Source of the DNA: Blastochloris viridis
Lineage (GTDB): Bacteria; Pseudomonadota; Alphaproteobacteria; Rhizobiales; Xanthobacteraceae
Length of the DNA stretch: 64,000 nucleotides
NCBI RefSeq assembly: GCF_001402875.1
Contig: NZ_CP012946.1
Span: 3,326,001 to 3,390,000, forward strand
Reading direction: 5' to 3'
Positions 2,821 to 7,126 of the stretch are shown here, one piece after another (the first letter of the stretch is position 1; every line of letters begins with the position of its first letter). The notes beneath the pieces are model-generated. The model searched no databases. It had not been told where the DNA came from and was given only the letters and a program-made list of their open reading frames with translations. Made by a program: the position numbers and the translations under genes.

Positions 2821-3387
2821 GTGAGAGTCATCGCCAGTTCCGTCCGCAAGGGCAACATTCTCGAAGTCGACGGCAGGCTCTACGCCGTGATTTCGGCCGA
2901 GAGCTTCTTTCCCGGCAAGGGCACGCCGACCACCCAGATCGACATGCGCCGGATCAGCGACGGGGTGAAGACCACCCAGCGCTACAAGACCACCGAACAG
3001 GTCGAGCGCGCGCACGTCGAGGACCGCCCCTATACCTTCCTTTACGAGGACGGCGACGGCTTCCACTTCATGAACAAGGAGAACTACGACCAGATCGCGG
3101 TCTCCAAGGACGTGCTCGGCGACCAGGCGGTCTATCTCCAGCCGGAGATGGAGTGCATGCTGTCGGTGTTCGAGGGCAACGCGGTGGCGATCGACCTGCC
3201 CCAGCGCGTGACGCTGGAGGTGGTCGAGACCCAGGCGGTGGTGAAGGGGCAGACCGCCTCCTCGTCGTACAAGCCCGCGCTGCTGTCCAACGGCGTCAAG
3301 ACCCTGGTGCCGCCGCACATCGATGTCGGCACCCGCATCGTGGTGATGACCGCCGACGGCGCCTATTGCGAGCGCGCCAAGGACTGA
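2821..3387 (+). CDS. efp: Translation elongation factor P
   Basis: A 188-residue EF-P, the normal family length, which relieves ribosome stalling at polyproline. The start is a GTG at 2821. The N-terminal KOW-like domain (residues 1-63) carries the modified loop FPGKGTPT with Lys33 as the predicted beta-lysylation site, consistent with the adjacent epmA and epmB. Two OB-fold domains follow, and the C-terminal part includes the VDVGTRI-like segment (here [10 protein letters not shown]). The loop after the modified lysine reads TPTTQID rather than the more usual QAF-type sequence, which is worth noting. The gene lies alone, divergent from epmA. Confidence 0.97.
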
Positions 3388-3390
3388 TCC

Positions 3391-3463
3391 GGCGTTCGGA
3401 CGATCGTTCCGATCCCGAAAACACCCTCGCCGAAACCCCGTGTTCGACATCGGGTTTTCGGCG
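3391..3463 (+). repeat. Structured intergenic repeat family, partial copy
   Basis: This copy starts 4 bp after the efp stop codon. It shows the family's core hairpin CGCCGAAACCCC...CGGGTTTTCGGCG at 3428-3463, preceded by a degenerate first hairpin (GTTCGGACGATCGTTCCGATC). It may serve as the efp terminator. See the copies at 3564, 37528, 41699, 42474 and 54295. Confidence 0.65.
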
Positions 3464-3563
3464 GGCGGCCAGCGGCATGGATTGCCTTCGCGCTCCCGAG
3501 CGGACCTTTCGGCAGCAGGCGAAAAGGGCGCCGATCGACACAGCCTTCAGTCGGCACCCCGAT

Positions 3564-3686
3564 CATACGGTTTCCGGATGATCCCTTCGGGCTCCCGGAA
3601 ACAAGCTCGCCGAAAACCCCTTTGCGAATAAGGGTTTTCCGGCGATCGGAATACGGTTCTCCGACCTGATCGGCCGGAAACCGTGT
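3564..3686 (+). repeat. Structured intergenic repeat family, full copy
   Basis: A full copy with three consecutive hairpins: GTTTCCGG/CCGGAAAC (3570-3602), CGCCGAAAACCCC/AGGGTTTTCCGGCG (3608-3644), and ACGGTT.../AACCGT (about 3653-3685). It lies directly downstream of the minus-strand LH1-gamma-like gene, so it would be transcribed as the 3' end of that mRNA. On the minus strand the central stem ends in GGGGTTTT, which resembles a rho-independent terminator. Confidence 0.75.
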
Positions 3687-3688
3687 CA

Positions 3689-3862
3689 CTAGTTGTAAAC
3701 GAAGGCAATCCAGATGGCCGGAAGGCCAAGAATTGTGAAGTTGATCCAAAGATAAGGGTCGGTGATGCTCGGCGTGATCGACCCATCCTGGTTGACGTAC
3801 GCCAAAGCAATCGTCGAGGTGAGGACCAGAGAGGCTGCTCCGATTGCAGATGCTTTCTTCAT
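3689..3862 (-). CDS. Light-harvesting 1 complex gamma-subunit-like small membrane protein
   Basis: A 57-codon gene. Residues 1-21 (MKKASAIGAASLVLTSTIALA) form a classical signal peptide ending in an ALA cleavage site. The predicted mature chain starts YVNQDGSITP, is exactly 36 residues long, and has one transmembrane helix (WINFTILGLPAIWIAFV, about residues 39-55). From memory, the LH1 gamma polypeptide of Blastochloris viridis is also a 36-residue single-helix protein, encoded by several dispersed genes; I could not check the alignment. Shine-Dalgarno GGAG lies 7 nt before the ATG. Codon use is less GC-rich than in the neighbours. A hairpin (3911-3934) sits in the likely 5' leader and a structured repeat follows the stop. 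No other photosynthesis genes are nearby. Confidence 0.72.
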   Translation of the reverse strand: MKKASAIGAASLVLTSTIALAYVNQDGSITPSITDPYLWINFTILGLPAIWIAFVYN

Positions 3863-4430
3863 TTTGCAGACTCCATTTAATTAGAGTGATTCCCCCTGCG
3901 CCTCTTCACCAGAGCGTCTTTCCGCGCACGCTCTGCGAGGTGATACGTGTTCGCTCTCACCCGGATCATGCCAACGGATAACAGACGCGTGACTTGTTCT
4001 GCCTTGGCTTGGCTGGGTCGCGGGCCGGCCGAGCCGCCGGTCCGGGGCGCCACCCGATGTTCCGAGGGCTGAACTGACGCATCGCCGAGGGCCATGCCCC
4101 TGTCCGGATCGCCAGGCGGCGTGAGGCACAACCCGGCAGCCGCGCATCCGCACCCATCGCAGGCCGAACCACACGAAGAGGCCGGACCTAAAGGTCCAGC
4201 CTCCCTTGCGTCAGAGCCATGCCACGTGAGGAATCGCAGCCTGCCAGCGGTCCGCCGGCCTCGCCGCGCCTGACGTGTCATCTCACGAGCGCGCCACCTC
4301 TTGGGCACGACCTGCCATGCTCGCCGCCAAAGCGGGCGCTGCACTTCCGGTGGCGCACCAGGTGCGCAGCCCGCAGGGCTGCCCGCTTAAGTCTTTGAGT
4401 TTTCTAGGGTATTTACCGGCAAAAGAAATT
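3863..4430. other. Gene-free stretch upstream of the LH1-gamma-like gene
   Basis: I see no convincing gene in these 568 bp; the open frames have atypical composition and no family features. A perfect 7-bp hairpin, AGAGCGT...ACGCTCT, lies at 3911-3934, about 50-70 nt upstream of the LH1-gamma-like ATG, and may be a 5'-leader stabilising structure. Another short GC hairpin (GCAGCCC GCA GGGCTGC) lies near 4367-4383. Confidence 0.5.
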
Positions 4431-4506
<76 letters not shown>

Positions 4507-4888
4507 ACCGGGCATCGGCGCGGGTCCAGTCGGACCCATGGGAAGCAGTCGCCGATACGGGCGCGTCGTTCGGGATGTCCCGGCCGGCGCGGGTGACCTA
4601 AAACCACAAACCGGCGGCGAGCACAAGCGGCACCGCACCAATTTTCCCCACCAGAGCCAGCCGGACGCGGCAAGAGGACGCCGGTACCAGCGTTTCGCAC
4701 CCGGCGGCCGGGTCACATGGCGGTGAGGACCGCGGCAATCGACCGCTTGCTGCTATAAATCCACTCCACGACGTCGGCATGACCACCGAATCGTCGACGC
4801 CGGCCCGCAGCCGGCCGCGTCGAGGGTGGCGCACCGCCGTTTCGCCGACGTGCCGGTGTTCTGCCGGCCGACACGCCTGGAGCCGCCG
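4507..4888. other. Intergenic region, no gene seen
   Basis: 382 bp between tRNA-Ala and the TVP38 gene. It should hold the tRNA promoter (minus strand) and the promoter of the TVP38-reductase pair, but I cannot point to clear boxes. Confidence 0.4.
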
Positions 4889-5692
4889 ATGATCGAGGGA
4901 CCCGCTCCCCGCCGCCCCGGCCCGGCGCTCCGCCGCTGGCGGCGGCTGCTGCCGGCCGCGGCCGTGGCGGCGGCGATGGTCGCGGCGCTGGCGCTCGGCG
5001 GTCACCGCTACCTGTCGCTCGCCGCGCTGGTCGACCACCACGCCGCGCTGGAGGCCCTGGTGGCCTCGCACCCGCTCACCGCCGCCGCGGTGTTCGTCGC
5101 CGGCTATGCCGCGGTCACCGCGCTGTCGCTGCCGGGGGCAGCGGTGATGACGCTGCTGGGCGGGCTGCTGTTTGGCTGGCTCGGCGGCACGCTGGCCTCG
5201 CTGGTCGCCGCCACCGCCGGCGCCACTGCGGTGTTTCTGATCGCCCGCACCTCGTTCGGCGACGATCTGGCGCGGCGGGCCGGCGGCACCCTGGCCCAAC
5301 TCGCCGGCGGCTTCCAGCGCAACGCGCTGAGCTACCTTCTCTTCCTCCGGCTGGTGCCGGCGTTCCCGTTCTGGCTGGTCAACCTGGTGCCGGCGCTGCT
5401 CGGGGTCCGGCTGTCGACCTACGTGGTGGCGACGGCGATCGGCATCCTGCCGGCGACGCTGGTGTTCGCGCTGATCGGCTCCGGCCTCGGCGGCACGCTC
5501 AAGGCCGAGCGCGCCGCGGTCGCCGCCTGCGTGGCCCGCGGCGGCGCGCCGTGCGAGGTGACGCTGTCGGTCGGCGATTTTCTGACGCCCGGTTTTATCG
5601 CCGGCCTCACCGCGCTCAGCGTGCTGGCGCTGCTGCCGCTGCTGGTCAAACGCCTGCGCCGGCCGGCGGCGCCGGCGCAGCGCCCGACCTGA
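4889..5692 (+). CDS. TVP38/TMEM64 (VTT domain, DedA-like) membrane protein
   Basis: About 267 residues and strongly hydrophobic. A first transmembrane segment follows an Arg-rich N-terminus (RRWRRLLPAAAVAAAMVAALAL). The VTT core comes next, with ALSLPGAAVMTLLGGLLFGW and GATAVFLIAR, then FLRLVPAFPFWLVNLVPALLG, the conserved re-entrant region of the family, and a final helix near the C-terminus. The ATG at 4889 has GGAG upstream and is preferred over a longer frame starting at 4826. It ends 9 bp before a flavin disulfide reductase; TVP38 proteins are often found beside or fused to such reductases. The transported substrate is unknown. Confidence 0.85.
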   Translation: MIEGPAPRRPGPALRRWRRLLPAAAVAAAMVAALALGGHRYLSLAALVDHHAALEALVASHPLTAAAVFVAGYAAVTALSLPGAAVMTLLGGLLFGWLGGTLASLVAATAGATAVFLIARTSFGDDLARRAGGTLAQLAGGFQRNALSYLLFLRLVPAFPFWLVNLVPALLGVRLSTYVVATAIGILPATLVFALIGSGLGGTLKAERAAVAACVARGGAPCEVTLSVGDFLTPGFIAGLTALSVLALLPLLVKRLRRPAAPAQRPT

Positions 5693-5701
5693 CGGGGCAC
5701 C

Positions 5702-7126
5702 ATGGCGCAGCCTCTGACCCCCGATCTGTGCGTGATCGGCGCTGGCGCCGGCGGCCTCACGGTGGCGGCCGCGGCGGCGGCGTTGGGCGTGCCGGTGGTG
5801 GTGATCGAGCGCCATCGGATGGGCGGCGACTGTCTCAACACCGGCTGCGTGCCGTCCAAGGCGCTGCTGGCCGCCGCCAAGCGCGCCCACGCCATCCGCA
5901 CCGCCAGCGCGTTCGGCATCGCCGCCGCCGAACCCGCGGTCGACTTCGCCGCGGTGATGGCGCAGGTCCGCGGCGTGCAGGCGGCGATCGCGCCGAACGA
6001 TTCCGCCGAGCGCTTCACTGCGCTCGGCGTCACCGTGATCCGGGCGGAGGGCCGCTTCGTCGCGCCCGACCGCGTGGTCGCCGGCGATGCCGAGATCGCG
6101 GCGCGGCGGTTCGTGATCGCCACCGGCTCGGTGCCGGCGATCCCGGACATCGCGGGGCTGGCCGAGACGCCGTTTCTCACCACCGACACCGTGTGGGATG
6201 TCGCGGCGCTGCCGCGTCACCTCGCCATCGTCGGCGCCGGCCCGGTCGGCTGCGAGCTGGCGCAGGCGTTCCGCCGGCTGGGCGCGCGCGTCACGGTGCT
6301 CGACGGCGGCCGCCCGCTCGCCGGCGAGGACCCCGAGTGCAGCGCGGCGGTGGCCGCGGCACTGGCGCACGAGGGGGTGGAGCTGCGCACCGGCATCCGC
6401 ATCGCCGGCGTCCGCCGCGACGGCGACGGCGTCGCCATCGACCTCGACGACGGCGCGCAACGCCATGGCGTTATCGCCTCGCACCTGTTGATCGCCGCCG
6501 GCCGGCGGCCGGCGGTGGACAGCCTCGGACTGGCGCAGGCAGGCATTGCGTCGTCATCGCGCGGCATCGCGGTCGACCGCGGCCTGCGCACCACCAACCG
6601 CCGGGTCTATGCCATCGGCGACGTCGGCGGCGGTGCCATGTTCACCCACCTCGCCGGCCATCAAGGCACGCTGGTGATAAGGAATGCGCTGTTCCGGCTG
6701 CCGGTGTCGTTCGATCCCGACCTGATCCCGCGCGTCACCTTCACCGACCCCGAGCTTGCCCATATCGGGCTCGGCGAGGCCGCCGCGCGCGCCCGTTGCC
6801 GCGACGTCCGGGTGGTGCGCTGGCCGGTGCGCGACAACGACCGCGCCCAGACCGAGCACGACACCGCAGGGTTCATCAAGGTGGTGACGACGCCGCGCGG
6901 CCGCATCCTCGGTGTCAGCATCGTCGGCGCCGGCGCCGGCGAGATAATCGCCACCTGGTCGTTTGCGTTGGCGAGGCGAAGCAACATTCGGGCTTTCACC
7001 AGCTTCGTCTTGCCCTATCCAACCGTTTCTGAAATTGGAAGGCGGGTAGCACTCGCCTTCTTCGCGCCGCGTTTGACCAGCCCACTGGTGAAACGTCTCA
7101 TCGGGCTTCTGCGTTGGCTCGGGTGA
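5702..7126 (+). CDS. FAD-dependent pyridine nucleotide-disulfide oxidoreductase (mercuric reductase-like)
   Basis: A 474-residue protein with an N-terminal FAD-binding GAGAGGLTVA motif, the redox-active dithiol GGDCLNTGCVPSK (two Cys five apart), an NAD(P)H-binding VGAGPVGCELAQ motif, and the FAD-contact segment YAIGDVGGG. The dimerisation domain ends PYPTVSEIGRR. The catalytic His usual just before PYPT in glutathione or mercuric reductases appears to be replaced by Leu (VLPYPT), as may be true of TVP38-linked members. No MerA-type N-terminal metal-binding domain or C-terminal Cys pair is present, so mercury reduction is unlikely. It follows the TVP38 gene by 9 bp, and the two probably form one operon. 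Confidence 0.88.
   Translation: MAQPLTPDLCVIGAGAGGLTVAAAAAALGVPVVVIERHRMGGDCLNTGCVPSKALLAAAKRAHAIRTASAFGIAAAEPAVDFAAVMAQVRGVQAAIAPNDSAERFTALGVTVIRAEGRFVAPDRVVAGDAEIAARRFVIATGSVPAIPDIAGLAETPFLTTDTVWDVAALPRHLAIVGAGPVGCELAQAFRRLGARVTVLDGGRPLAGEDPECSAAVAAALAHEGVELRTGIRIAGVRRDGDGVAIDLDDGAQRHGVIASHLLIAAGRRPAVDSLGLAQAGIASSSRGIAVDRGLRTTNRRVYAIGDVGGGAMFTHLAGHQGTLVIRNALFRLPVSFDPDLIPRVTFTDPELAHIGLGEAAARARCRDVRVVRWPVRDNDRAQTEHDTAGFIKVVTTPRGRILGVSIVGAGAGEIIATWSFALARRSNIRAFTSFVLPYPTVSEIGRRVALAFFAPRLTSPLVKRLIGLLRWLG

Follow-up and report, generated by a model that had tools for sequence, protein, structure and literature searches.

Elimination identifies the small gene at the centre of this analysis as LH1γ4, the fourth gamma-antenna gene already published for Blastochloris viridis, and we hold it probable that γ4 carries a private promoter-like block, encodes a condition-specific isoform of the antenna subunit and has moved as a unit within the genus. 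The gene and its spectral effect have been known since 2022, when γ4 was named, deleted and expressed from a plasmid (PMC9788563), and the earlier view of it as a new gene falls away on that account. New from the present comparison of genomes are its three chromosomal places with reciprocal empty sites, its private upstream block and the purifying selection acting on it.

Identity of the gene and its place in the gamma family

The window (the whole stretch of DNA analysed, 64,000 nucleotides) lies within a single contig of 3,724,841 bases. A sequence-only reading had proposed a 57-codon minus-strand gene at 3689-3862, and this ORF was confirmed, running from 3862 to 3689 with start ATG and stop TAG. 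The gene and its surroundings carry the following features:

3689-3862, minus strand: LH1γ4 coding sequence, 57 codons and stop (ORF; homology to PDB 9j2f and 6et5 chains; orthologues in two sister species)
3800-3862, minus strand: predicted signal peptide, 21 residues, ending in ALA before Y (sequence reading, hydropathy, and analogy with the 36-residue mature gamma chain of PMC9788563)
3692-3799, minus strand: predicted 36-residue mature chain with a single membrane-spanning stretch towards the C-terminus (hydropathy; invariant positions in the 15-sequence alignment A1)
3871-3874, minus strand: GGAG, likely ribosome-binding site, 8 nt 5' of the ATG, kept in three of three species
2821-3387, plus strand: efp (elongation factor P), convergent downstream neighbour (three Pfam EF-P domains)
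4431-4506, minus strand: tRNA-Ala(GGC), same-strand upstream neighbour, 568 bases before the γ4 ATG (tRNA identification)
3565-3684, no strand assigned: dispersed 120-bp palindromic repeat, 4 bases from the γ4 stop codon and outside the conserved unit (at least 46 matches in the viridis genome)

The product matched gamma chains of known structures (9j2f_F, E = 1.7e-16; 9j2f_G, 3.7e-10; 6et5_2, with 24 resolved residues, 0.0052), which bears out the proposed LH1 gamma subunit; these structural matches, the orthologues and the dN/dS ratios given below mark the ORF as more than a chance reading frame. Residues 1-21 show KK, a hydrophobic core and ALA when read by eye and by hydropathy, in agreement with the leader, ALA site and 36-residue one-helix chain predicted earlier. 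The neighbours, efp and a tRNA, were also read correctly. Apart from the tRNA, an Rfam search of 3000-5000 gave nothing at gathering score, and Pfam and NCBIfam returned no family for the γ4 protein, whose B. tepida orthologue is labelled 'hypothetical protein'. The description of the gene as unannotated did not hold, as the Figure 2 legend of PMC9788563 states that loci are listed for each gamma ORF.

The search for further gamma copies suggested by the sequence-only reading found three, so that the B. viridis genome holds four gamma genes: three in a cluster and γ4, 1.37 Mb away. The notion of dispersed copies is thereby upheld for γ4 but not for the other three, which are clustered at the same place in three species. 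Mature position 34 of the clustered genes reads T, T and V, as the 2:1 ratio published in PMC9788563 requires. On this gene content we take the genome to be that of Blastochloris viridis or of a very close strain, so the organism implied by the sequence-only reading was correct. The same study (Namoon et al. 2022) describes γ1-3 as clustered and a divergent gene apart from the cluster, which it names LH1γ4; since three of the four gamma genes of the genome make up the cluster, the gene in the window would be that fourth one by elimination. It shares the standing of a fourth, divergent, off-cluster gene with no difference in the gene itself. The text of PMC9788563 consulted here places the gamma genes away from the photosynthesis gene cluster and contains no discussion of the γ4 upstream block or of its place in other species.

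Within Blastochloris we compared B. viridis, B. sulfoviridis DSM 729 and B. tepida. A genome search found gamma in 3 of 198 genomes of the family and 1 of 47 genera, namely Blastochloris only. When 5.8 billion proteins were searched with a profile, 20 passed the E cut-off of 10, and none of these scored worse than 4.6e-23; gamma was confined to the BChl b-containing Blastochloris save for one γ1-like protein (P0018) that is named as coming from a Rhodospirillales MAG. Viral carriage was rejected, no relative being encoded in any of 17 candidate viral stretches. Each of the three Blastochloris genomes carries a single γ4, the two sister orthologues being 84% and 78% identical to that of B. viridis, and the gene is intact in all three species and in five metagenomic proteins. 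A scan of genome contigs gave just two loci, both from B. sulfoviridis.

A tree built from the profile-search proteins and three rows added from genomes separated γ4 (8 rows) from γ1-3 (15 rows) with support 100/100, while most inner forks were weak (5 of 19 starred). In the underlying 23-sequence alignment, where the gap of the 56-residue sequences was positioned by hand, 17 positions are invariant, and both groups share a precursor of 57 or 56 residues and a mature chain of 36 or 35 residues (γ1-3 including the 6et5 and 9j2f chains). The two groups are only 51-59% identical, however, and in 19 of 57 columns each group has its own fixed residue (8 versus 15 sequences), 15 of these columns falling in the mature chain. 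Furthermore, γ1-3 differ from γ4 in their upstream module and in their fixed chromosomal place; γ4 is thus distinct both by its separate branch and by its private upstream block. The gamma chains of PDB 9j2f are B. tepida γ2 (15 chains) and γ1 (one chain, named gamma1).

Earlier work positions gamma between beta subunits, outside the LH1 ring. The gamma-like polypeptide of Rhodopila globiformis (PDB 7XXF, PMC9640540) likewise forms one helix that sits outside the ring, between beta subunits; its gene too lies away from the puf genes and was missed by annotation; it differs in having 22 residues and no cleaved leader, in coming from a BChl a organism and in being present at 11 per ring. The gamma profile gave no match to the Rhodopila polypeptide at E up to 10, although a chain of only 22 residues can go unnoticed in searches of this kind and may be absent from the set searched.

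The private upstream block

Directly upstream of the γ4 start codon lies a conserved block with the following elements:

3863-3992, minus strand: conserved γ4 upstream block, 130 bp in B. viridis, likely promoter and leader; homology with sulfoviridis and tepida stops at 3992
3971-3991, minus strand: core element CACGCGTCTGTTATCCNTYGG, likely regulator-binding site; exact match, one per genome in three genomes, each before γ4
3943-3948, minus strand: ACGTAT, possible -10 region (by eye), kept in three of three species; the sigma-70 scan gave no site here
3910-3935, minus strand: inverted repeat with 8-base arms (3910-3917 and 3928-3935) and a 10-base centre; conserved in the sister species, where the arms span about 6 and 5 bases

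In three pairwise comparisons, γ4 homology extended from -130 (pairs with viridis) or -189 (sulfoviridis-tepida) through the gene and ended at its stop codon or no more than some 20 bases ahead of it. Close to the gene, all three species agree at 68 of 125 ungapped columns of the block, and the block is conserved amid intergenic DNA that cannot be aligned between them. Beyond its exact occurrences, the core element CACGCGTCTGTTATCCNTYGG had one further match, with 3 mismatches, in the viridis genome; the reversed control pattern gave one match in viridis and one in tepida.

The γ1-3 genes are preceded by another module, CCRTTGCATTC...CRGA..CG.TA...T, which is present without mismatch, by construction, at seven of seven γ1-3 genes; elsewhere in the three genomes it occurs at 3 places, each with 3 mismatches, and the reversed control gave 2 matches. 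No match was found in any of 21 comparisons between γ4 and γ1-3 upstream regions. Within the module, TTGCAT-16-TANNNT looks promoter-like by eye. The sigma-70 scan found no site in the γ4 block and none at the γ1-3 modules and, being silent on both, cannot separate the one from the other. We consider it likely that the upstream block is γ4's own promoter, and likely that γ4 is not made together with the main copies because its block differs from theirs.

In the gamma cluster (locus L013, 4500-7100) a copy of the γ1-3 module stands before each gene, with the copies about 1 kb apart. An own module before each gene suggests separate promoters within the cluster rather than one transcript; γ1-3 were inferred to be co-transcribed in PMC9788563.

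The sequence-only reading had described a leader hairpin. The inverted repeat at 3910-3935 is real, but none of the three species has a leader that folds more stably than its shuffled versions (z = -0.97, 0.69 and -0.33), and an RNA hairpin was rejected on these grounds. Since the leader folds no better than shuffles, we prefer to see the repeat as a DNA element, and it is likely an operator.

Chromosomal place of γ4 in three species

Each of the species B. viridis, B. sulfoviridis and B. tepida has its γ4 gene at a different chromosomal place. In tepida it lies between a phyR-type regulator gene and tRNA-Thr, with flanks 1169 bases apart; in sulfoviridis the corresponding flanks are separated by 169 bases that lack γ4. 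Conversely, the sulfoviridis gene adjoins an AI-2E-type transporter gene, with flanks 1244 bases apart that in tepida are separated by 319 bases without γ4. The γ1-3 cluster, in contrast, has the same flanks and place in all three species. These reciprocal empty sites and the fixed cluster indicate that γ4 moves while its paralogues do not, and the comparison of sulfoviridis with tepida shows that γ4 and its block changed place as one unit within the genus. Independent movement of gamma copies, as the sequence-only reading had envisaged it, hence applies to γ4 and not to the cluster.

The viridis place, between efp and tRNA-Ala, is less clear-cut. The distance from efp to γ4 is about 250 kb in tepida, and in sulfoviridis the two lie on separate contigs. 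The viridis tRNA-Ala flank corresponds to tepida 3170669-3173607, 275 kb from tepida efp, which puts viridis γ4 at a synteny breakpoint; judged by synteny, its relocation is indistinguishable from a rearrangement with a breakpoint there.

In two species γ4 lies 3' of a same-strand tRNA, namely tRNA-Ala in viridis (568 bases; window 3689-4506) and tRNA-Thr in tepida (317 bases; L012, 6012-6578); no tRNA was found within 11 kb around sulfoviridis γ4. We rejected tRNA-targeted integration, as neither viridis nor tepida has a duplicated tRNA end beside γ4 and none lies near the sulfoviridis gene. Nor did the ORFs around γ4, inspected by eye, include a recognisable transposase, and with the tRNA-end duplication also absent there was no mark of a transposon or insertion sequence. 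A foreign origin by composition was likewise discarded: γ4 has a GC content of 52-56% and GC3 of 67-71% against 57-61% and 64-76% for γ1-3, and such a composition is not specific to γ4.

The downstream structured repeat noted earlier is present at 3565-3684, but it belongs to a genus-wide family, whose matches number at least 46, 64 and 62 across the three genomes, and is not specific to γ4. As a common dispersed repeat lying where interspecies homology has stopped, around the stop codon, it was rejected as part of the γ4 unit. An identical copy stands at genome position 3421406-3421525, so the repeat has spread recently. In tepida and sulfoviridis γ4 is likewise flanked by dispersed repeats; given how common such repeats are, their presence there does not argue that they move the gene. 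At a separate pair of sites, in tepida (L084, about 5990-6190) and sulfoviridis (L011, about 4410), it is tepida that carries an inserted palindromic repeat of ~100 bp at CTAG, where sulfoviridis reads CAGACTAGGGAAGTTCG; this pair is the filled and empty site of a dispersed MITE-like repeat.

Selection, expression and competing explanations

By pairwise comparison of its codons, γ4 is under purifying selection in all pairs, with dN/dS of 0.25 for viridis-sulfoviridis (0.094/0.372), 0.15 for sulfoviridis-tepida (0.095/0.622) and 0.14 for viridis-tepida (0.127/0.937). As a background for dS we used reciprocal best ORFs in the compared loci with dN/dS under 0.6, among which some overlapping opposite-strand ORFs remain; it ranged over 0.06-0.42 in 45 sulfoviridis-tepida pairs, 0.14-0.68 in 18 viridis-sulfoviridis pairs and 0.18-0.61 in 10 viridis-tepida pairs. 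Single-species coding changes among the 171 bases of γ4 number 20 in tepida, 14 in viridis and 6 in sulfoviridis.

These divergences bear on a serious contender to movement of one copy, namely that the different places reflect several ancestral γ4 copies, or transfers from other Blastochloris, with different copies kept in each lineage. The γ4 dS lies inside the background range for viridis-sulfoviridis, and at 0.62 (sulfoviridis-tepida) and 0.94 (viridis-tepida) it exceeds all 45 and all 10 background pairs, respectively, while γ1 and γ2 have a dS of only 0.09 and 0.11 between sulfoviridis and tepida. Since 0.62 is above every one of the 45 pairs, the sulfoviridis and tepida copies may be differently kept old paralogues, and tepida γ4 would be either fast-evolving or an old paralogue. 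However, dS from 57 codons is noisy, there is a single γ4 in each genome with no remnant of the core element save the one 3-mismatch match, and the γ4 protein tree, in agreement with the species tree, joins sulfoviridis and tepida (91/99, below the tool's star level). We continue to favour relocation of γ4 together with its block.

Expression in phototrophic growth, which the sequence-only reading had proposed to check, has been reported as negative: the conditions published revealed no native γ4, Edman analysis did not detect it, and no phenotype of the native gene was seen (PMC9788563). Deletion of γ1-3 or of γ1-4 gave identical spectra: halogen light left the 825 nm signal of the reaction centre only, and white light gave 972 nm (PMC9788563), so that under both lights a mutant with native γ4 alone looked like one with no gamma at all, which speaks against a regulated isoform. 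The main isoforms γ1-3 red-shift LH1 from 972 to 1018 nm and γ4 red-shifts it less: when each was expressed from the puf promoter under halogen light, γ1 brought absorption back to 1018 nm, whereas γ4 brought it to 1003 nm, which the authors interpreted as incorporation into the ring (PMC9788563); a commentary restates the γ4 result (PMC10212510). The same authors suggest that γ4 may be inducible by particular light regimes (PMC9788563).

That γ4 is instead a dispensable back-up or a gene being lost appears unlikely. Such a reading would account for the native product and phenotype not having been found (PMC9788563) and for the fast-changing tepida copy, with its 20 changed bases in 171, but it sits poorly with intact copies in each of the three species, five further metagenomic proteins, a dN/dS of 0.14-0.25 and an upstream block conserved where the surrounding DNA is not. 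Least probable is a low-level minor subunit that takes up one particular position of the ring, such as that next to the quinone gap, and does not replace γ1-3 wholesale: 9j2f, with 15 chains of one gamma and one gamma1, shows that a single divergent gamma per ring occurs, and ring averaging in the B. viridis structure could mask a copy at 1 in 16, yet the minor chain there is tepida γ1, of the γ1-3 clade, and for native γ4 neither Edman detection nor a phenotype was obtained (PMC9788563).

Under the condition-specific isoform that we favour, the 57-residue precursor would be cut to a 36-residue single-helix subunit that packs between beta subunits outside the LH1 ring. The private block, unlike the γ1-3 module, would keep γ4 off in standard phototrophic growth; in some untried condition γ4 would be turned on, replace γ1-3 in part and retune the ring. 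Gene and block would relocate as one unit, as between sulfoviridis and tepida, with viridis γ4 at a synteny breakpoint. In the openly accessible literature, most subscription papers being outside our scope, we found no description of γ4 regulation or of its differing places.

The conserved private block offers a 130-bp piece that could drive a reporter, and the mature chain, with its 15 fixed differences, yields a short residue list for the 15-nm difference between the isoforms. A bolder proposal, which we put forward as tentative and rather doubtful, is that γ4 is a portable spectral switch, a unit of 300-360 bp with its own promoter that is induced by light or redox state and shifts the whole LH1 ring from 1018 towards 1003 nm. 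If true, this would be the first known case in which a >1000 nm antenna is inducibly retuned through the exchange of an accessory subunit.
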